Source: an uncultured Flavobacteriaceae bacterium | Lineage (GTDB): Bacteria > Bacteroidota > Bacteroidia > Flavobacteriales > Flavobacteriaceae | Reading direction: 5' to 3' | DNA length: 64,000 nt | Assembly: GCA_937929935.1 (NCBI GenBank) | Contig: CALFUL010000007.1 | Coordinates: forward strand, 1 to 64,000 | Shown here: positions 54,858 to 62,468 of the stretch, piece after piece | Position numbering within the stretch: the first letter of the stretch is position 1 | How the letters are laid out: every line of letters begins with the position of its first letter | Made by a program: the position numbers and the translations under genes | The notes under the pieces: generated by a model | Database searches by the model: none | What the model saw: the letters and a program-made list of their open reading frames with translations, nothing else | What the model was told of the DNA's origin: nothing

Positions 54858-55622
54858 TTAACTTCTTATGTTTTTAGTAAAACTGCCTATATTTTCTATT
54901 CCATTAGCAGTCAAATGCTTAATAAAAGCCGAACCAATAATAGCGCCTTTTGCATTTTTTGTGGCCGCCTGAAAGGTTTCTGAATCTTTAATGCCAAAAC
55001 CTACTATTTGAGGGTTTTTTAAATTCATGTTTGAAATGCGCTCGAAATAGCTCGTTTGGGTAGTTCCAAAGCCTGATTTTGAACCTGTAACACTAGCAGA
55101 ACTTACCATATAAATAAAACCATTAGAAGCTTCATCGATTTGACGAATACGCTCATCACTAGTCTGCGGCGTAATTAAGAAGACGTTAATCAAACCGTAT
55201 TTATTAAAAGTTGTTTCGTAATCTGCTTGATACACATCTAAAGGTAAATCTGGCATAATCAAACCATCAATACCAATCTCTTGACATTTTTGGCAGAAAG
55301 CTTCAACTCCATATTGTAACATAGGGTTAAAATACCCCATGATAATTAGTGGAATGGAAACTGTCTTACGTATGTCTTTCAATTGCTCAAATAACTTTTC
55401 AGTGGTCATTCCATTTTTCAAAGCAGCAGTTGAGCTTTCTTGAATGGTTGGTCCGTCAGCCAAAGGGTCGCTAAATGGCAAACCAATTTCAATCATATCA
55501 ACACCATTTTTTTCCAAATCTTGAATGATTTGTACGGTTTCATTTAGTGCTGGGTAGCCTGCGGTGAAGTATATAGAGAGGAGTTTTTTGTCCTCTTTGA
55601 GTTTTTGGTTTATTCTGTTCAT
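54858..55622 (-). CDS. trpA: Tryptophan synthase alpha chain
   Basis: 254 residues, TIM barrel of normal length. Catalytic Glu in MIEIGLPFSDPLADGPTIQ and Asp in LIMPDLPLD; the phosphate loop is in VGFGIKDSETF and GAIIGSAF. It cleaves indole-3-glycerol phosphate and passes indole to TrpB. Last gene of the trp operon, but separated from trpB by 400 bases filled by a GIY-YIG gene with terminal inverted repeats; the TrpA N-terminus itself is normal. Confidence 0.97.
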   Translation of the reverse strand: MNRINQKLKEDKKLLSIYFTAGYPALNETVQIIQDLEKNGVDMIEIGLPFSDPLADGPTIQESSTAALKNGMTTEKLFEQLKDIRKTVSIPLIIMGYFNPMLQYGVEAFCQKCQEIGIDGLIMPDLPLDVYQADYETTFNKYGLINVFLITPQTSDERIRQIDEASNGFIYMVSSASVTGSKSGFGTTQTSYFERISNMNLKNPQIVGFGIKDSETFQAATKNAKGAIIGSAFIKHLTANGIENIGSFTKNIRS

Positions 55623-55628
55623 AGTGTG

Positions 55629-55654
55629 TTGTCATTCCCGCGAAGGCGGGAATC
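55629..55654 (+). repeat. Left terminal inverted repeat of the GIY-YIG unit
   Basis: Contains TTCCCGCGAAGGCGGGAA, a perfect 7-bp stem with a 4-nt loop, preceded by TTGTCA. The reverse complement is found at 55996-56021. Confidence 0.9.
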
Positions 55655-55677
55655 TGTTTATGTATTCTTTATGTTTA

Positions 55678-55968
55678 TTAATCACCTAACATCCAAGAAA
55701 GGTCTTTCCAGTCTGGATTCATATCGTTTATTAAGTTCTCTTTCCATTGTCGTCTCCATCCTTTTAATAATTTCTCCCTTTTGATAGCATTGTTTACATA
55801 TTGGGTTTTTTCAAAATACACTAGTTTATGAGTGCTATATTTTTTTGAAAACCCTTTATTATCTTTTGATTGATGTTGTTCTAGTCTTAATTTTAGATTA
55901 TTTGTCATTCCTACATATAACACCGTATGATTTTTATTTGTTAGTATGTAGATGTAATACTGTTTCAT
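55678..55968 (-). CDS. GIY-YIG nuclease-domain protein (URI/COG2827 type)
   Basis: 96 residues, the single GIY-YIG domain of normal length for this group. YYIYILTNKNHTVLYVGMTNNL carries the two tyrosines and glycine of the motif, RLEQH supplies the catalytic arginine and histidine, and AIKREKLLKGWRR the metal-binding glutamate; all catalytic positions look intact. Function of these small proteins is unsettled; the fold cuts DNA in homing endonucleases and UvrC. Sits between trpB and trpA inside 26-bp inverted repeats, an odd place for a nuclease in a biosynthetic operon, and is transcribed in the operon direction. Confidence 0.92.
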   Translation of the reverse strand: MKQYYIYILTNKNHTVLYVGMTNNLKLRLEQHQSKDNKGFSKKYSTHKLVYFEKTQYVNNAIKREKLLKGWRRQWKENLINDMNPDWKDLSWMLGD

Positions 55969-55995
55969 TTCATGATCATACTGCTTGCCTCTAGG

Positions 55996-56021
55996 GATTC
56001 CCGCCTTCGCGGGAATGACAA
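55996..56021 (-). repeat. Right terminal inverted repeat of the GIY-YIG unit
   Basis: Exact reverse complement of 55629-55654; ends one base before the trpB stop codon at 56023-56025. Confidence 0.9.
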
Positions 56022-56022
56022 A

Positions 56023-57249
56023 TTATTTTAGCTTAAAATAATCAATATAGGTATTCAAATCTTTATCGCCTCTACCAGATAGGCTAATCACAACTACATC
56101 ATCAGCTTTGAATTTCTTGTGGTCAAATATGGCAAATGCATGTCCGGTTTCGATTGCGGGTATAATACCTTCGAGTTTTGAAAGTTCAAGACCTGCAGCC
56201 ATGGCTTCATCATCAGTTGCGGAATAAAACTCTGCTCTTCCGGTTTTATGAAGATGCGAATGCATCGGGCCAACACCTGGGTAATCTAATCCTGCTGATA
56301 TAGAATACGGTTCTGTTATTTGACCGTCAGCAGTTTGCATCAGCATGGTTTTACAACCGTGAATGATTCCTACTTTTCCTAAAGCTGAGGTTGCTGCACT
56401 TTCTCCAGAATCAACTCCTTTTCCGGCAGCTTCAACGGCAATAATACCTACTTCAGGTTCATCTAGAAAGTGATAATACGTACCAGCTGCATTACTTCCG
56501 CCGCCAATACAAGCAACTACATAATCAGGGTTTTCACGTCCTTCTTTCTCTTTAAGTTGCCATTTAATTTCTTCAGATATGATCGATTGAAAACGCGTCA
56601 CCATATCAGGGTAGGGGTGCGGCCCAATCGCTGAACCAATAATATAATGTGTATCTACGGGGTTGTTTATCCAATCCCGAATAGCTTCATTGGTTGCATC
56701 TTTAAGTGTTCTACTTCCTGAAAGAGCTGGGCGAACCGTTGCACCTAACATTTTCATTCTTGCCACGTTTGGAGCTTGACGCGCGATATCAATTTCGCCC
56801 ATATAAACAATACATTCCATGCCCATTAAAGCACAAACGGTTGCGGTGGCAACACCATGTTGACCGGCTCCTGTTTCGGCAATAATTCTAGTTTTGCCCA
56901 ATTTCTGAGCTATCAGAATTTGACCAATAGTGTTGTTTACTTTATGAGCTCCGGTATGGTTTAAATCTTCTCGTTTTAGATATATTTTACAGTTGTGTTT
57001 CTCTGAAAGGCGTTTTGCAAAATATAGAGGAGAAGGCCTACCCACATAGTCTTTAAGTAGTTGGTTGAATTCTTTTTGAAAAGAATCTTCATACATAATC
57101 TCCAAATATTTTTGACGTAACTCTTCCACATTCGGATACAGCATTTCAGGAATATATGCACCTCCAAATTCTCCGTAATATCCTTTTTCGTCTGCGTGGA
57201 AGCCCCCTACATACCCAGATGTTGAATCTAATATTGCTTCTTTTTTCAT
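56023..57249 (-). CDS. trpB: Tryptophan synthase beta chain
   Basis: 408 residues. PLP lysine in [15 protein letters not shown] near residue 98, catalytic Glu in [12 protein letters not shown] near 120, the PLP phosphate loop [10 protein letters not shown] near 246, and AIETGHAFA near 365. It condenses indole and serine to tryptophan. Normal N-terminus and length. Follows trpF after a 106-base spacer made of AAGTCCTAAG-type repeats. Confidence 0.98.
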
Positions 57250-57270
57250 TTGTTGTCAGTTTTTATTTTA

Positions 57271-57329
57271 AAGTCCTAAGTCCTAAGTCAAAATTTAAAA
57301 GTCCAAAACCAAATACTTAGAACTTTTCA
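57271..57329. repeat. AAGTCCTAAG repeat in the trpF-trpB junction
   Basis: Short tandem phrase AAGTCCTAAGTCCTAAGTC followed by related AAAGTCC and TACTTAGAACTTTT words fills most of the 106-base spacer. It resembles the AAGTATTAAG-type spacer between trpG and trpD, but not the G/C-rich elements. Confidence 0.6.
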
Positions 57330-57355
57330 TTAGCACTATTTTTTTAATTTAACCC

Positions 57356-58153
57356 TTAACCTTTTATCTCTTTCCTGAACTTCTTCAGCTCCTCAACATT
57401 CTTAAGCCCTGGTTCTAGCTCAAATTTACTATTCACGTCTAGGGCATGACAATATTTTGCTTCTGGTTGTTTCATAAATTCTTTAATAGATTCTATTTCG
57501 CTCAATCCAATTCCACCACTTAAAAAATAGGGCTTGGTTGAAGGGTAGTTTTTTAATACATTCCAATTAAAACTATAGCCATTTCCGCCAGGTAGTTTTC
57601 CTTTGGTATCAAAAAGGTAGAAATCACAAATTGCTTCAAATGGTTGTAATTGGTCAAAGTTAAAGTCGTCTTTTATTGAAAATACTTTGATGATAACCAA
57701 ATCTGTCCGGTCGAGCGGAGTCGAGACCTGCGTACTAAATGTTGTTTTCTTTTTTCTCGACTCCGCTCGAAATGACAGAAAACTATCTTTCAGTTCTTCA
57801 CAATATTCCGGACTTTCATTACCATGTAATTGCACGCCCCATAAATCAAATGTGGTTACTTTTTCTAAAACTTCAGCTATTGTGGCATCTACGAAAACAC
57901 CTACTTTCTTAATAGTTGCAGGTATTTCTGGCATCACTCCATTAAAACATCTTTTTGACGGATCCCAAAAAATAAAACCTAAATAGTCGGGTCTTAAACC
58001 TGCAACCTCTGTGATGTTTTTATTCATGCCGCAGACCTTTAAACCTACAGATGACTTCCCCGAAAGCGAAAGGTTAGCCCCTTCTAGCTCCCCCAAAGGG
58101 CGAGAACTTCTGCTATTGTGTTTGTTGTTAGTCATTTTTTCTCTTTTTGTCAT
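57356..58153 (-). CDS. trpF: Phosphoribosylanthranilate isomerase with repeat-derived extension and insertion
   Basis: 265 residues from ATG 58153 (58135 is an alternative start), against about 205-220 in relatives. The enzyme proper begins at LKVCGMNKN (Cys41 general base, residues 38-45), continues through GVQLHGNES, and after a gap IIKVFS, FDTKGKLPGG (catalytic Asp) and FLSGGIG. Residues 1-37 are an extra N-terminal stretch (SSRPLGELEG and following) coded by a G/C-rich element. Residues about 124-150 (SFLSFRAESRKKK ... STPLDRT) are an insertion coded by an inverted pair of TCGAGCGGAGTCGA elements, between the LKD helix and the IIKVFS strand. Both are in frame. The barrel core looks complete, so the enzyme is probably active. 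Confidence 0.95.
   Translation of the reverse strand: MTKREKMTNNKHNSRSSRPLGELEGANLSLSGKSSVGLKVCGMNKNITEVAGLRPDYLGFIFWDPSKRCFNGVMPEIPATIKKVGVFVDATIAEVLEKVTTFDLWGVQLHGNESPEYCEELKDSFLSFRAESRKKKTTFSTQVSTPLDRTDLVIIKVFSIKDDFNFDQLQPFEAICDFYLFDTKGKLPGGNGYSFNWNVLKNYPSTKPYFLSGGIGLSEIESIKEFMKQPEAKYCHALDVNSKFELEPGLKNVEELKKFRKEIKG
57703..57778. repeat. Inverted TCGAGCGGAGTCGA pair inside trpF
   Basis: CTGTCCGGTCGAGCGGAGTC at the left and the inverted copy ending CTCCGCTCGAAATGACAG at the right are separated by about 20 bases; the whole is 76 bases. The same core is found singly in valS at 17650-17676. Confidence 0.85.
58050..58115. repeat. G/C-rich elements coding the TrpF N-terminal extension
   Basis: GACTTCCCCGAAAGCG and TAGCTCCCCCAAAGGGCGAG words, two related half-palindromes of the CCCC/GGGG type found at the other trp junctions. 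Translated in the minus direction as SSRPLGELEGANLSLSGKSS. Confidence 0.7.
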
Positions 58154-58205
58154 TCTGATGAAGGAGGAATTTGTAGTTGAGTTTCCTTGTGCCTCAGAAT
58201 GACAA
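58147..58205. repeat. 59-bp palindromic element between trpC and trpF
   Basis: Perfect 12-bp terminal inverted repeats TTGTCATTCTGA (58147-58158) and TCAGAATGACAA (58194-58205). One end touches the trpC stop codon (58206-58208); the other contains the trpF ATG (58153-58151). Confidence 0.85.
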
Positions 58206-59054
58206 TTAAAGTTTTAAATTTTCAATAAACCCCTGTGCGCTTTTTCCTGGGTTTTCTGACTTCATAAAGTTCTCACCTATTAAGAACCCTTCATACCCAT
58301 ATTGTTTTAAATCTTGTATTGCTGCAATAGAACTAATGCCGCTTTCAGAAACTTTCACAAAATCATCAGGAATTAATGAGGATAACGCTTTGCTAGTTTC
58401 TAAACTCACTTCAAAAGTTTTGAGATTTCGATTGTTTACACCAAGCATATCTAAACTTGGCATAATAGATTTATGTAATTCTTCTTCATTATGAACTTCT
58501 AATAGTACATCTAAATCTAAACTCTTCGCTAATTCAGAGAATGTTGTAATTTCTTCTTTGGATAGTATTGCTGCAATCAATAAAATTACATCTGCTCCAT
58601 GAGCTTTTGCCTCTAGAATCTGATACTCGCTGATAATAAATTCTTTTCGAAGCAATGGCATGTTAACCGAAGCTCTTGCCAATTGTAAATCTTCTAATGA
58701 GCCACCAAAATATTTGATGTCAGTTAGAACGCTCATTCCGCAAACTCCTGCTTTTTCATATCCTTTGGCAACCTGACCTACATTAGTGTTTTGATTGATT
58801 GTTCCTTTAGATGGAGAACGTCTTTTGTGTTCGGCAATAATTCCCGTAGAACTATTACACAGCGCATTTGCCAAGGAGACCGTTTCTCTTCCGAAAAGAA
58901 CTGACGCTTCCAATTGTTTAGAAGGAATAAGCGATTTTTTCAAATCGACTTCTTTGTATTTGTCAGCTACTATTTTAGATAAAATGTCAGCCCCTCCTAG
59001 CCTCCCCGAAGGGAAGGGATTAGCTTGTTGATTTATATTCTTTTCGTTATTCAT
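58206..59054 (-). CDS. trpC: Indole-3-glycerol phosphate synthase with N-terminal extension
   Basis: 282 residues, about 20 more than relatives. The usual start (ILDKIVxxKxxEV) corresponds here to ILSKIVADKYKEV at residue 24. The first 23 residues, including ANPFPSGRLGGAD, are coded by a G/C-rich palindromic element (58987-59023). Catalytic parts are present: EHKRRSPSKG with the lysine, LLRKEFI, LEVHNEEEL, GVNNRNL, VSESGI and LIGENFM. It closes the indole ring before TrpA. No other start codon lies near the natural position, so the extension is probably translated. Confidence 0.97.
   Translation of the reverse strand: MNNEKNINQQANPFPSGRLGGADILSKIVADKYKEVDLKKSLIPSKQLEASVLFGRETVSLANALCNSSTGIIAEHKRRSPSKGTINQNTNVGQVAKGYEKAGVCGMSVLTDIKYFGGSLEDLQLARASVNMPLLRKEFIISEYQILEAKAHGADVILLIAAILSKEEITTFSELAKSLDLDVLLEVHNEEELHKSIMPSLDMLGVNNRNLKTFEVSLETSKALSSLIPDDFVKVSESGISSIAAIQDLKQYGYEGFLIGENFMKSENPGKSAQGFIENLKL
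58987..59023. repeat. G/C-rich element coding the TrpC N-terminal extension
   Basis: CAGCCCCTCCTAGCCTCCCC then GAAGGGAAGGGATTAGC: a CCTCCCC/GGGGAGG-like imperfect hairpin of the same family as the trpD-trpC junction. Read on the minus strand as ANPFPSGRLGGAD. Confidence 0.75.
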
Positions 59055-59066
59055 GTTATTTTTTTA

Positions 59067-59122
59067 TCCCCCTCCTTTGGAGGGGTTAGAGGAGGACTTT
59101 TATTCCCCTTTGGGGTTAGGAC
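59067..59122. repeat. Two G/C-rich palindromes in the trpD-trpC junction
   Basis: CCCCCTCCTTTGGAGGGG and TTCCCCTTTGGGGTTAGG hairpins in tandem, separated by AGGACTTTTA. The same two-part unit fills the trpE-trpG junction. Confidence 0.8.
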
Positions 59123-60115
59123 TTATTTACTCAACTCCTGCAATTTTTTCAGTGCTAACAATCCATTCCCACTTAACAAAGATTCTTTTGCCTTCTCAAA
59201 CCCTTCTTTAATACCAATGTTTTCAACTGTTGAAATTGCGACTCCTGCATTGGCGCACACTACGTTATTTTGAGCATCTGTTCCTTTTGCTTGTAAAACA
59301 TTCATGAAAATTTGAGCAGATTCTTCAATACTATCTCCACCTACAATTTCGGATTGTTGAATTGCTTTCAAACCAAAATCAGAAGGTTTTATCATTCCTT
59401 CAGAATGGTTAGAAATTGTTTTAGTGTTTCCTGTTAAAGAAATTTCATCGTAACCATCTAAAGCATGTAAAACGGTAAAGTTCTTATCTGTGTTTTGATA
59501 CAGATAGCCGTACATTCGGGCTAATTCCAAATTGAATACGCCTACCATTTGGTTCTTCGGAAAAGCCGGATTCACCATGGGTCCTAACATATTAAAAAAA
59601 GTTTTTACACCCAATTCTCTTCGAATAGGTGCTACATTTTTCATCGCAGGATGAAATAGCGGAGCGTGTAAAACACAAATTCCTGCTTCATCAATAGACT
59701 TCTCTAAAAAGCCTGCTTCATTACTGAATTTGAGGCCTAAAAATTCCATTACGTTACTACTGCCACATTTTGAGGAAACGCCGTAATTACCATGTTTCGT
59801 TACTTTAACTCCTGCTCCAGCGGTAACAAAAGATGCTAAAGTGGATATGTTAAAGGTGTCTTTTCCGTCGCCACCAGTACCACATAAATCAACCGGATTG
59901 TATGCTGATAAATCAATAGCTAAACACAGTTCTAAAAGTGCATCACGAAAGCCTTCTAATTCTTCGATAGTAATGCTTCGCATCATATATACCGTCAAAA
60001 ATGAAGCTATTTGACTCGAATTATAGTCGCCTTTGGCAATATTGACCAAAATTTGTTTCGCATCTTCTTTTGCGAGGATGTCGTGATTGATTAGTTTATT
60101 GAGCGTCTGTTTCAT
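59123..60115 (-). CDS. trpD: Anthranilate phosphoribosyltransferase
   Basis: 330 residues. The PRPP/Mg loop VDLCGTGGDGKDTFNIST is at about residues 76-93, KHGNYGVSSKCGSSNVME at 107-124, and the second metal motif in FFNMLGPMVNP near 174. It joins anthranilate to phosphoribose. N-terminus normal (MKQTLNKLINHDILAKEDA). Only its spacers, not its coding frame, carry repeats. Confidence 0.97.
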   Translation of the reverse strand: MKQTLNKLINHDILAKEDAKQILVNIAKGDYNSSQIASFLTVYMMRSITIEELEGFRDALLELCLAIDLSAYNPVDLCGTGGDGKDTFNISTLASFVTAGAGVKVTKHGNYGVSSKCGSSNVMEFLGLKFSNEAGFLEKSIDEAGICVLHAPLFHPAMKNVAPIRRELGVKTFFNMLGPMVNPAFPKNQMVGVFNLELARMYGYLYQNTDKNFTVLHALDGYDEISLTGNTKTISNHSEGMIKPSDFGLKAIQQSEIVGGDSIEESAQIFMNVLQAKGTDAQNNVVCANAGVAISTVENIGIKEGFEKAKESLLSGNGLLALKKLQELSK

Positions 60116-60203
60116 TCTTTATAATAGTATTAAGTCTTAAGTAATTAGTATTAAGTATTTGTTTTGAACTTTTTACTTAATACTTTGTGCTCATTACTGA
60201 GCT
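60116..60203. repeat. AAGTATTAAG-type repeat in the trpG-trpD junction
   Basis: The words AGTATTAAGTCTTAAG, TAGTATTAAGTATT and the inverted TTACTTAATACTTTG fill the 88-base spacer and can fold back. AT-rich, unlike the G/C-rich elements. Confidence 0.65.
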
Positions 60204-60830
60204 TTAGCTCTTCAGCCAGTTTTTCAATATTTGTTTTCCTTCAGGAGTCAAAATAGATTCTGGATGAAATTGTACCGCGCAAACATCATATTCTTTATGA
60301 CGTAAAGACATTACTTGTCCGTTTTCATCATAAGAAGTTGCTTCTAACACTTCAGGAAGCTCAGGATTCACAACCCAAGAATGATATCTACCTACTTTTA
60401 TTTCTTTTGGCATTCCTTCGAACAGAATATCATCTTTTACAATATTAATTTTTGTAGCAATACCATGATATACTTTATCTAAATTTATCAGCGAACCTCC
60501 AAAAACTTCGCAAATAGCTTGCTGCCCTAAGCATACTCCGAATATACTTTTGGTTGCAGCATACCGCTCAATAATCTCTTTTAGAAGTCCCGCCTCATCT
60601 GGAATACCGGGACCTGGAGAAAGTACAATTTTATCAAAAATAGCAACTTCTTCTATGGTCAATTGATCGTTTCGCTTCACGATGACCTCGCAACCTAAAT
60701 CTTCCAAATAATGGACGAGATTATACGTGAAGCTATCGTAGTTGTCTATCACTAGAACAGAAGAAGTCCCATCTAGCTTCCCCAAAGGGGAAGGAGTCTT
60801 ACTCGAATCTATATTTTTGTTATCTGTCAT
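60204..60830 (-). CDS. trpG: Anthranilate synthase glutaminase component with N-terminal extension
   Basis: 208 residues against about 187-190 in relatives. The natural start (KILVIDNYDSFTYN) corresponds to VLVIDNYDSFTYN at residue 25; residues 1-24, with KTPSPLGKLDG, are coded by a palindromic element (60766-60798). The catalytic triad of class I amidotransferases is present: Cys in FGVCLGQQAI, His and Glu in VQFHPES. It supplies ammonia from glutamine to TrpE. A GTG inside LVIDN is the only start codon nearby and would truncate the first strand, so the extension is probably real. Confidence 0.96.
   Translation of the reverse strand: MTDNKNIDSSKTPSPLGKLDGTSSVLVIDNYDSFTYNLVHYLEDLGCEVIVKRNDQLTIEEVAIFDKIVLSPGPGIPDEAGLLKEIIERYAATKSIFGVCLGQQAICEVFGGSLINLDKVYHGIATKINIVKDDILFEGMPKEIKVGRYHSWVVNPELPEVLEATSYDENGQVMSLRHKEYDVCAVQFHPESILTPEGKQILKNWLKS
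60766..60798. repeat. Palindromic element coding the TrpG N-terminal extension
   Basis: CTTCCCC-AAA-GGGGAAG, a perfect 7-bp stem, flanked by ATCTAG and GAGTC. Read on the minus strand as TPSPLGKLDG. Confidence 0.8.
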
Positions 60831-60841
60831 TTTGTTTTTTT

Positions 60842-60905
60842 TGTCCCCCTACTTCGGAGGGGTTAGGGGAGGCCTTTTATTCCCCCTTCAGGGGTTGGGG
60901 GGCTT
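60842..60905. repeat. Two G/C-rich palindromes in the trpE-trpG junction
   Basis: CCCCCTACTTCGGAGGGG and TTCCCCCTTCAGGGGTTGGG hairpins in tandem, separated by AGGCCTTTTA; they end at the trpE stop codon. Same arrangement as the trpD-trpC junction; the second palindrome also matches the valS insertion at 16930-16956. Confidence 0.82.
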
Positions 60906-62303
60906 TTATATCGTTTCAGCAATTTCAAGTGCTTTTGTTAAAGCACCTAGTTTGTTATAGGTTTCTTGTAATTCGTTTTCTGCATCTGAAGCAGCTACTA
61001 AACCAGCGCCAGCTTGATAATGCAATTCATGATTTTTACTGAGAAATGTTCGAATCATAATTGCATGGTTGAAATTTCCTTTAAAGTCCATAAATCCTAT
61101 AGCGCCGCCGTAATATCCTCGACTTGTTTTTTCGTATTTCTCAATGAGTTGCATTGCCATATGCTTTGGGGCACCACTTAAAGTTCCGGCTGGGAAAGTA
61201 TCTGCTACCACTTTCATTGTGGAAATGTCTTTTTTCTTTTGTCCGGTTACTTTAGATACCAAATGAATTACATGAGAGAAGAATTGTACCTCTCTATAGT
61301 TGGTGACTTCTACCATATTTCCGTTTCGGCTCAAATCGTTTCTTGCTAAGTCTACTAACATTACATGTTCTGCATTTTCTTTATCGTCTTCGGTCAATTC
61401 TTTAGCAAGAATTGCATCTTGTTCATCATTTCCGGTACGTTTGAAGGTTCCGGCTATAGGATGAATTTCAGCGACACCTTCTTTTACAATCAATTGTGCT
61501 TCAGGTGAACTACCAAAGATTTTAAAATCTCCATAGTCAAAGTAAAATAAATAAGGTGAAGGATTCACTGAACGTAAGGCGCGGTATACGTTAAACTCAT
61601 CCCCCTTAAATCCTTGTGAAAATCTGCGTGATAATACTAGTTGAAAAACATCCCCGCGTTGGCAATGTTTCTTCGCGATGGCTACTTGCTCTCTGAAATC
61701 TTCATCTTCTAAGTTAGATTTTTTATCTCCATCCATAGAAAAATTATAGGAAGCAAAGTTCTTTACGTTGAGAATTTGTTCAATTTCTTGAACGTTGTTT
61801 TCTGTTTCAAAGCAATTAGCAAAAATGTACGCCTCATTCTTAAAATGATTGATAGCAATGATATTCTGATATACAGCATAATAGATATCAGGAATTGCAA
61901 CCGAATTGTCTTTTTTCGAAAGTTTTACATCTTCGTAATACCGAACAGCATCGTAAGCCATATAACCGAAGAGTCCGTTATCGATGAATTTGAAATCACT
62001 CTTGATGGCATCAAAACGTTGACTAAAATTGTGAATGACATCAACTACATTGGTGTCTTCGCCAATTTCAATAGTATCAGAACAACCGTCAGGAAATTGT
62101 TGTGTTATTATTTCGTTTTCAACTTTAATCGAAGCAATTGGGTTGCAACAGATGTAAGAAAAGCTATTATCATTCGCATGATAGTCACTACTTTCAAGTA
62201 AAATGCTATTTGGAAAGCGGTCTCTGATTTTAAGGTAGACACTGACGGGCGTGATTGTATCCGCTAGTATTTTCTTGTGATGTGATTGTAATTGATATTT
62301 CAT
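60906..62303 (-). CDS. trpE: Anthranilate synthase component I
   Basis: 465 residues. Feedback-site residues LLESSD near 36-40, and the chorismate/Mg part: SRRFSQGF, GSSPEAQL, HPIAGTFKRTGNDEQDAIL, LVDLARNDLSRNG, DTFPAGTLSGAPK and YYGGAIGFMDF. It makes anthranilate with TrpG. First structural gene of the operon; preceded by a leader with Trp codons and a terminator hairpin that ends 8 bases before its start codon. No repeat-derived sequence inside. Confidence 0.98.
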   Translation of the reverse strand: MKYQLQSHHKKILADTITPVSVYLKIRDRFPNSILLESSDYHANDNSFSYICCNPIASIKVENEIITQQFPDGCSDTIEIGEDTNVVDVIHNFSQRFDAIKSDFKFIDNGLFGYMAYDAVRYYEDVKLSKKDNSVAIPDIYYAVYQNIIAINHFKNEAYIFANCFETENNVQEIEQILNVKNFASYNFSMDGDKKSNLEDEDFREQVAIAKKHCQRGDVFQLVLSRRFSQGFKGDEFNVYRALRSVNPSPYLFYFDYGDFKIFGSSPEAQLIVKEGVAEIHPIAGTFKRTGNDEQDAILAKELTEDDKENAEHVMLVDLARNDLSRNGNMVEVTNYREVQFFSHVIHLVSKVTGQKKKDISTMKVVADTFPAGTLSGAPKHMAMQLIEKYEKTSRGYYGGAIGFMDFKGNFNHAIMIRTFLSKNHELHYQAGAGLVAASDAENELQETYNKLGALTKALEIAETI

Positions 62304-62310
62304 TTGATGC

Positions 62311-62347
62311 TATAAAATAAGAAAGGCCCGTCGTGATGACAGGCCTT
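62311..62347 (-). terminator. Attenuator hairpin of the trp operon
   Basis: On the minus strand AAGGCCTGTC, loop ATCAC, GACGGGCCTT: ten pairs with one G-U, then TCTTATTTTAT. It lies between the leader peptide stop (62376) and the trpE start (62303). No gene other than the leader peptide precedes it on this transcript, which marks it as an attenuator rather than an ordinary terminator. Confidence 0.82.
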
Positions 62348-62375
62348 GTATAGTTTTACTATAATGTTGCTCAGC

Positions 62376-62432
62376 TCACGTTTTTTTTCGAGAGTTGTTC
62401 CACCACCAAGTATTTGTATTTCTTTCTTGCAT
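62376..62432 (-). CDS. trpL: Trp operon leader peptide with three consecutive Trp codons
   Basis: Eighteen codons: MQERNTNTWWWNNSRKKT, stop TGA. Three adjacent TGG codons lie at 62408-62400; the stop is 29 bases before the terminator hairpin. Tryptophan is rare in proteins, so three in a row directly before trpE is strong evidence for sensing of charged tRNA-Trp by ribosome stalling. An in-frame ATG at 62453 would give 25 residues but lies upstream of the -7 box, so the shorter form is favoured; its ATG would be very near the 5' end of the mRNA. Regulatory peptide without function of its own. I could not find a convincing antiterminator helix by eye. Confidence 0.82.
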   Translation of the reverse strand: MQERNTNTWWWNNSRKKT

Positions 62433-62437
62433 TGGTT

Positions 62438-62468
62438 CAAATATAGAAATCATTTTTAATTCTGCCAA
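62438..62468 (-). promoter_or_regulatory. Promoter of the trp operon
   Basis: Minus strand TTG (62468-62466), 20 bases, TATATTTG (62445-62438), an exact TAnnTTTG. Transcription would begin near 62430-62434, at the leader peptide ATG (62432). Confidence 0.7.

Follow-up and report, generated by a model that had tools for sequence, protein, structure and literature searches.

Stand-Alone GIY-YIG Nuclease Genes Are Paired with Classes of Small Palindromes and May Mobilise Them: Evidence from a Flavobacterial trp Operon and Related Loci

We analysed a 64,000-nucleotide stretch of DNA from an uncultured Flavobacteriaceae bacterium (assembly GCA_937929935.1, contig CALFUL010000007.1, positions 1 to 64,000), hereafter the window. 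Its open reading frames (ORFs) and sequence define a trp operon on the minus strand, with the gene order trpE-G-D-C-F-B-A, spanning positions 54858–62303. An earlier note on this DNA had claimed that all six junctions of the operon are filled with short repeats or palindromes, and the coordinates, repeats and inverted ends were confirmed in the sequence. The note had also recorded, at the trpB-A junction, a gene for a small nuclease of the GIY-YIG type between inverted repeats, without its bearing on the repeats. That bearing is the subject of this report. Within the family, clades of stand-alone GIY-YIG nucleases are specifically paired with classes of palindrome, a result in which we place very high confidence. 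Several families of small palindromic elements have probably settled in the trp junctions, with the nuclease clades as dedicated partners of palindrome classes, which they would mobilise.

Results

A nuclease gene lies between two tagged hairpins at the trpB-A junction

The trpB-A junction measures 400 bp from the stop codon of trpB to the first TrpA residue common with relatives. It contains a stand-alone ORF of 96 aa (55678–55968, minus strand) placed between inverted arms that are identical over 26 bp. In operon sense the left arm occupies 55996–56021 and the right arm, its exact inverted copy, 55629–55654. The protein matched PF01541 with an E value of 6e-17, its conserved GIY-YIG residues are intact, and PF01797 was not among the profile matches listed for it. 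The arm, TTGTCATTCCCGCGAAGGCGGGAATC, consists of an unpaired TTGTC, which includes the TGTC tag, an 8-bp stem ATTCCCGC/GCGGGAAT, a 4-nt loop and an unpaired CC(C) tail (fold z −4.0). All 175 GIY-YIG proteins of the two sets described below have R28, and all but one have E65, the catalytic Arg and Glu of the domain; nuclease activity is predicted. Further GIY-YIG genes of the same genome adjoin palindromes or duplicated tRNA pieces, of different sequence.

The NCBIfam model NF004743 (NuoH, 433 positions) matched the window protein at model positions 210–294, far under its cut-off. Some NuoH sequences possibly carry an in-frame GIY-YIG unit.

Stand-alone GIY-YIG genes are flanked by repeats far more often than their neighbours

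PF01541 matches were found in 149 of 149 genomes of the family searched, large proteins of other function included. From the top of this list, together with five of the ten matches in the genome of the window, a non-random set of 99 stand-alone ORFs of 78–128 aa was assembled; rows with stops, frames above 200 aa, one contig-edge row, some second matches and the lower part of the list were left out. The flank score was the best match between the 200 bp before and the 200 bp after a gene, and was called strong at 24 or above. Strong inverted repeats flanked 53 of the 99 GIY-YIG ORFs, versus 12 of 283 neighbour ORFs from the same loci. Direct repeats of this strength flanked 64/99 versus 19/283, and repeats of either orientation 84/99 versus 27/283. 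When one unit per shared locus was kept, 30 of 59 reached the inverted threshold. Among ORFs of the window and the trp loci 14/190 reached it, and at least two of the 14 are GIY-YIG units.

A second set was obtained by searching genome contigs with proteins of one clade (Z, see below). The best 80 of 537 confirmed loci were taken; three had no full ORF and one had insufficient flank, which left 76, with 41 from Bacteroidota. Strong inverted flank repeats were present around 56/76 GIY-YIG ORFs versus 9/157 neighbour ORFs, the positives being split into 35/41 in Bacteroidota and 21/35 elsewhere. The latter comprised Bacillota (6/8), Ignavibacteriota (3/4), Pseudomonadota (1/3), Fidelibacterota (1/2), one locus each from Acidobacteriota, Chloroflexota, Spirochaetota, Caldisericota, Atribacterota and candidate division LCP-89, and 4/7 loci from groups without a named phylum. 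Five single loci from other phyla had no strong inverted flank repeats. Positives therefore cover 11 named phyla, six of them by a single examined locus.

Palindrome classes track nuclease clades within the family

The flanking palindromes of the family set were sorted into classes Z (TTCCNGC..GCNGGAA), S (GAGCGNAGTCGA), E (CTGAACTTGTTTCAG), L (CACTTCGAGTG..TATCGAGAA), B (TTGCGAGG..) and T (tRNA pieces), using patterns that were composed after the flanks had been viewed and are hence not blind. They labelled 67 of the 99 units, or 58 when T is excluded. On a tree built from the proteins only, the labels required 24 changes, versus a mean of 57.4 for shuffled labels, and none of 200 shuffles was as low (unlabelled units being treated as one group). 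Classes E and L each lie on one side of a single branch. Because many units have the same neighbours across genera, shared loci were collapsed: the 38 labelled representatives required eight changes, versus 22.8 on average over 300 shuffles, of which the lowest gave 18, and the 33 that remain without T required seven, versus 18.2. Paralogues within one genome also differ in class according to clade, as in G080 and G120, which both hold S, E and Z. Nuclease clade and palindrome class are specifically paired within the family.

The arms share further features. Of the 109 units with strong inverted repeats, 59 have GTC as the outer end of each arm, for a chance expectation of about 0.16 per arm. 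A typical arm is TTGTCATTCCTGCGCAGGCAGGAATCCA, which in several units is the same on both sides. In the E arm GTC is unpaired, the stem is ATCCTGAA/TTCAGGAT and the loop has five nucleotides. The tails of Z units read ATCCA in many cases, CCC in the window unit and TCT in others. Among 30 Z units, 13 have two arms of the same sequence, versus 3.4 expected from re-pairing, as if matching arms were copied or corrected as one unit.

A separate GIY-YIG branch is found by tRNA genes or pieces of them (L002, L008, L047, L061, L073, L096, L099, L103, L106, L130 and L133), where the partial tRNA copies hold a small palindrome, for example in the D-loop part of tRNA-Leu. At L133, three near-identical units stand in tandem. 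Decayed GIY-YIG genes, with stops or deletions, were seen at L007 (G000:C12), at the trpB-A junction of L037 (G027) and in G122, G123 and G135, some of them still accompanied by repeats, which suggests that the nuclease was lost and the repeats left behind.

Almost all genomes with an E or S nuclease carry the matching repeat

The presence of E- and S-clade nucleases was scored in 120 genomes, with cut-offs of 119 and 127 bits, respectively, chosen by eye at gaps in the score lists; arms flanking the nuclease genes are counted among the repeat copies. The E pattern occurred in 22/23 genomes with an E-clade nuclease versus 24/97 without, and the S pattern in 20/21 genomes with an S-clade nuclease versus 37/99 without. 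The E pattern was also found in 16 of 17 genomes that have the E nuclease only, versus 2 of 15 that have the S nuclease only. Among the matches listed, pairs of S copies within 100 bp of each other had their tags outward in 15 cases, inward in one and in the same direction in eight, and the outward pairs were often about 50 bp apart.

The elements of the trp operon are insertions

Measured as for trpB-A, the other junctions are 147 bp (trpE-G), 88 bp (trpG-D), 134 bp (trpD-C), 151 bp (trpC-F) and 154 bp (trpF-B) long. A GC-rich element with a double palindrome (C-type, 60765–60905) follows trpE (60906–62303, 465 aa), and a second one (58989–59122) follows trpD (59123–60115). The two have in common a 53-bp stretch with 89% identity and a second, 25-bp G/C-rich piece. 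The first contains the first ATG and some 24 additional codons of the trpG frame (60204–60830), the second the first ATG and some 22 additional codons of the trpC frame (58206–59054); both N-termini are lengthened compared with relatives, and the ATG at the relatives' start position is gone. The GC-rich elements apparently supply the start codons of trpG and trpC. A partial GC-rich element (58076–58105) lies within the extended N-terminus of trpF (57356–58153). Two AT-rich, AAGT-type repeats occupy the trpG-D junction (60116–60203), where the repeat resembles by eye those of L023, L029 and L030, and the trpF-B junction (57250–57355), upstream of trpB (56023–57249). The trpC-F junction holds a 59-bp, TGTC-tagged two-arm element (TTGTCATTCTGA...TCAGAATGACAA, 58147–58205), with perfect 12-bp terminal inverted repeats and a single-strand fold z of −5.3. 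Finally, a two-arm element of S type (TGTCA..TCGAGCGGAGTCGAGA..., 57703–57778, fold z −7.0) lies inside trpF, to which it adds about 24 residues in frame. This element, and the starts of trpG, trpC and the extended trpF N-terminus within GC-rich elements, go beyond what had been noted before. The operon ends with trpA (54858–55622).

C-type elements, in the window as well as at L030, L033 and L244–L248, offer an ATG and an open frame through the second hairpin, and the one at L244 lies in frame within an open frame (..SSPSGRLGGD..). One narrow pattern for this type, run over the collected loci, matched at no sampled GIY-YIG unit and thus pointed to no partner; its matches were confined to the trp loci, L044 (near a Y1-transposase gene) and L244–L248. 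Upstream of trpE, at 62338–62452 on the minus strand, the Rfam model Bacteroid-trp for a tryptophan leader RNA scored 44.1 bits, below its gathering score of 49; a leader peptide with three consecutive Trp codons is visible by eye.

Empty junctions were sought, as had been proposed, in the trp operons of 20 relatives, 12 of them congeneric and some interrupted by contig ends. Counting the window and those congeners in which both genes are present, junctions were tight (15 bp or less) in 8/11 cases for trpE-G, 3/13 for trpG-D, 5/13 for trpD-C, 2/11 for trpF-B and 5/11 for trpB-A. Five of the six junctions are thus empty in one or more of the 12 congeners. The sixth, trpC-F, was tight in 1/13, and that one lies at a contig end; a longer native N-terminus of trpF accounts for the lack of tight cases in the genus. 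The earlier statement that such junctions are normally tight holds for trpE-G, the only one that is empty in most of the genus, and fails for most of the others. Congeners also bear other palindromes at the same borders: trpD-C of L030 has a TTGTCCTTCCGAGG... pair, for instance, and in both L022 and L024 one Z hairpin stands at trpF-B. The presence of empty junctions in some congeners, and of different palindromes at the same borders in others, indicates that the trp elements are insertions; the view that several unrelated elements were inserted, and tolerated, at gene borders is borne out. An exact target duplication was looked for and not found, and the junctions of the congeners are too diverged to fix the exact empty site.

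The S element of trpF was absent from all 19 relatives whose TrpF covers the site (L033 ends before it). At this place the TrpF of L032, L038, L039 and L040 has shorter, different extra residues. The insert in L038 (G034, another genus) reads SSRAQSGDL, letters that might fit half an S-type palindrome. At the trpB-A junction of L040, also from another genus, there is a further repeat type, CTAACAGGTTTTAGAAACCTGTTAGGC, similar to the palindrome found around the L044 Y1-transposase gene.

The S core GAGCGNAGTCGA occurs three times in the window at one mismatch or less, all exact, versus a mean of 0.21 in shuffled sequence, and 0/100 shuffles reached three. The string TGTCATTC is weak evidence alone, with six occurrences versus 2.4 expected and 4/100 shuffles reaching six. 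In the genome assembly from which the window comes (3.1 Mb, 85% complete), up to three mismatches being allowed, there were 38 copies of the S type, nine of the Z type, two of which are the trp arms, and five of the second hairpin of the GC-rich element, one of them in trp; the search string AGCCCCCCAACCCC was left out of these counts as written. The expectation of further copies was thereby upheld for the S, Z and GC-rich types and not for the 59-bp element, which has almost none: TTGTCATTCTGA was found three times, two of them in the trp element itself. The idea that the latter represents an abundant family was dropped, since the single other TTGTCATTCTGA is not followed by TCAGAATGACAA within about 150 bp.

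GIY-YIG units occupy other operon borders and some are old

Units also stand at the operon borders bioD-bioA (L068, L120, L125), hisC-hisB (L045, L050) and hisH-hisA (L046), and between dut and a sugar-nucleotidyltransferase-like gene (L057, L083, L090). The neighbours were identified by NCBIfam, both of them for L120, L045, L046 and L057 (where the nucleotidyltransferase match is under the curated cut-off). For L068 and L125 one neighbour was identified in this way, and the remaining ones were recognised by likeness of the first residues.

The trpB-A units of the window's genus, two Aquimarina, Tamlana and other Flavobacteriaceae form one clade (11 rows, support 83), and the same junction in Winogradskyella L201 holds a different GIY-YIG clade. 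Independent recent insertion at every junction was considered and rejected on these grounds. Units persist for long at some sites. A conserved junction over long divergence, or a want of further genomic copies, had been named as evidence against insertion; the former was found for the trpB-A unit, which is old and common to several genera, and the latter nearly so for the 59-bp element. A GIY-YIG gene also lies upstream of trpE in L022 and in two Salegentibacter.

Loci of Y1 transposases carry other palindromes

Repetitive extragenic palindromes (REPs) with a GTAG tag are served by Y1 transposases known as RAYTs (REP-associated tyrosine transposases). RAYT-family matches were present in the genome of the window and in 27 of 60 genomes of the family, 33/60 having none at E ≤ 0.001. 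Of 30 RAYT loci retrieved, 19 were examined, and none had class Z, S, E, L or B within 250 bp, versus 58/99 GIY-YIG units with one of these classes; four of the 19 are near contig ends and have less certain ORF bounds. Several RAYT loci have palindromes of their own, for example GCTAGCGCTCGTC..GACGAGTGC.

The RAYT of the window's genome (L043/L138, G000:C29), which scores above the NF047646 cut-off, is flanked by its own palindrome, GCACTCGTCAGAGACGAGCGCTAGCG. On contigs C1, C19, C25 and C27 of that genome, RAYT-family matches lie within about 100 bases of the first base; assembly breaks seem to fall at these matches.

Discussion

We propose that trpB-A holds an autonomous unit, made of a stand-alone GIY-YIG nuclease gene between two TGTC-tagged REP hairpins in inverted orientation with their tags outward. 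Two-arm relatives of such units that lack a nuclease would be the S element of trpF and, perhaps, the 59-bp element. Each stand-alone GIY-YIG clade would partner one palindrome class, mostly REPs tagged CGTC or TGTC, much as RAYTs do for GTAG REPs. The nuclease would recognise its own tagged hairpin, probably exposed as a single strand or a cruciform, and cut at or near the tag; the cut would then drive repair copying of the REP, or of the two-arm unit, to new places. In its general form the proposal is one of spread by nuclease cutting and repair copying, with no need for a transposase, an integrase or a reverse transcriptase. Once in place, units would last through vertical inheritance at sites that tolerate them, operon junctions among these. 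Mobilisation of the palindromes by the nuclease is, in our judgement, fairly likely. For the wider proposition, that GIY-YIG nucleases are general dedicated mobilisers of CGTC/TGTC REPs in many phyla and form a previously unrecognised class of mobile element, we hold the chances to be even.

Several observations weigh against this proposal. Binding, cleavage and transposition by the nuclease are postulates of the proposal, and no partner could be assigned to the GC-rich and AT-rich trp elements. Beside GIY-YIG genes, direct repeats are no rarer than inverted ones, 46/99 units are under the inverted threshold, and 15/99 are under it even when direct repeats are counted. The class patterns left 32/99 units without a class, class B shows no significant clustering in the protein tree (53/500 shuffles were as low), and the clade match covers the one family. 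Arms of the S, B and L classes fold weakly when taken alone. Many units are not recent: once shared neighbours are taken into account, the 99 come down to 59 loci, and the unit at trpB-A is an old one. In the genome survey the S pattern distinguished poorly between nucleases, being present in 14/15 S-only versus 11/17 E-only genomes (p 0.09), and it was commoner with the E nuclease too (17/23 versus 40/97, p 0.004). The matching pattern was missing from G144, which has an E-clade nuclease, and from G110, which has an S-clade one, and some nucleases scored as present carry stops, for example in G122, G123 and G135. The repeats also occur in many genomes that lack the matching nuclease (24/97 for E, 37/99 for S), which requires nuclease loss or another mobiliser to be assumed.

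The main rival, itself unlikely, is homing: the GIY-YIG gene would be a free-standing homing endonuclease that targets palindromes and invades pairs of them through cutting and repair, the palindromes spreading otherwise. GIY-YIG enzymes do include homing nucleases, and such an origin would suit both the repeats that lack a matching nuclease gene and a junction that is occupied in several genera, with a different clade in Winogradskyella. However, a homing insert normally splits its own target, whereas the gene in these units lies between two complete hairpins whose tags point outward and whose arms often match; and the clade match and copy-number association would be explained only if the nuclease also amplified the repeats. 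If recombination between repeats had instead carried or duplicated the GIY-YIG genes as passengers of intergenic regions rich in repeats, the direct repeats around 64 of the 99 genes and the tandem copies in L133, L130 and L085 would be accounted for. We regard such passive linkage as improbable: neighbour ORFs are seldom flanked in either orientation, the repeat class tracks the protein clade in unrelated loci, and none of the examined RAYT loci of the same family carries these classes.

The earlier note had suggested that insertion was perhaps favoured by giving each cistron its own hairpin. A benefit of this kind for expression, through mRNA stability, termination or translation, would agree with the filling of all six junctions in one operon, and of several in some congeners, as well as with the start codons that some elements contain. 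This suggestion fared badly and now appears very improbable, given that five of the six junctions lack any element in some congeners, that an element also lies within the coding sequence of trpF and others replace start codons, that the trpB-A element belongs to a nuclease-bearing unit of a type seen at several unrelated operon junctions, and that in the family the palindrome class tracks the nuclease clade in unrelated loci too. Mobilisation by RAYTs is harder still to credit. Their presence in the window's genome and in nearly half of the family genomes surveyed speaks for it, but their loci have other palindromes, with the GIY-YIG classes at 0/19, and the genomes without a RAYT match include G068, G070 and G085, whose GIY-YIG loci have repeats all the same.

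Short TGTC/CGTC palindromes are very common bacterial repeats. If mobilisation by clade-matched GIY-YIG nucleases is correct, it would account for the crowding of a conserved biosynthetic operon with hairpins of unrelated kinds, and new start codons and in-frame insertions would be side effects. It would also give a possible role to many genes annotated merely as GIY-YIG family proteins. No paper linking GIY-YIG genes with REP-like repeats was found by title or abstract among the matches listed for the open-licence literature, preprints excluded.

The closest repeats described are the CGTC REPs of Di Nocera et al. (2013, PMC3733652). According to the parts of that survey used here, they have an unpaired CGTC, TGTC or CCTC tag at one end, stems of 8–9 bp starting with AT, loops of 4–5 nt and CCA-like tails, form mostly opposite-oriented dimers, are occasionally inserted in genes, and occur in Bacteroidetes, alpha-Proteobacteria and others (five phyla); the superfamily includes Neisseria dRS3 and Rickettsia RPE-4 and RPE-6. 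Measured against this description, the Z and E arms share tag, stem and loop, and some Z units the CCA-like tail too, whereas the S, B and L arms do not conform, so that membership is claimed for Z and E only. The units reported here differ in carrying a clade-matched GIY-YIG gene between two hairpins. The same parts of the survey state that CGTC REPs "apparently lack a dedicated transposase" and leave open which enzyme spreads them (PMC3733652); the clade match with a nuclease of about 95 aa would be a testable answer.

By profile, the window protein has the same domain as stand-alone GIY-YIG proteins (UPF0213; PDB 1ywl and 1zg2) and the N-domain of UvrC (1yd6), which were deposited as hypothetical proteins or as part of a repair enzyme under record names that mention no repeats. 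Rickettsia palindromic elements insert in frame in genes, and the S element of trpF resembles them as an in-frame tagged palindrome; host and element class differ. Like a RAYT with its GTAG REPs, the unit has one small gene for a nuclease-like protein, with a short, dispersed palindrome in inverted copies on either side. Family-specific pairing, two-arm derivatives and long vertical persistence, for which RAYT/REPIN systems are known, are likely further parallels. Unlike the RAYT of a REPtron, the window protein is a GIY-YIG enzyme and not an HUH Y1 transposase, and the tag is TGTC/CGTC rather than GTAG. We know of no common ancestry between the two enzymes, and the units described here may represent a second, independent REP-plus-nuclease system beside that of the RAYTs.

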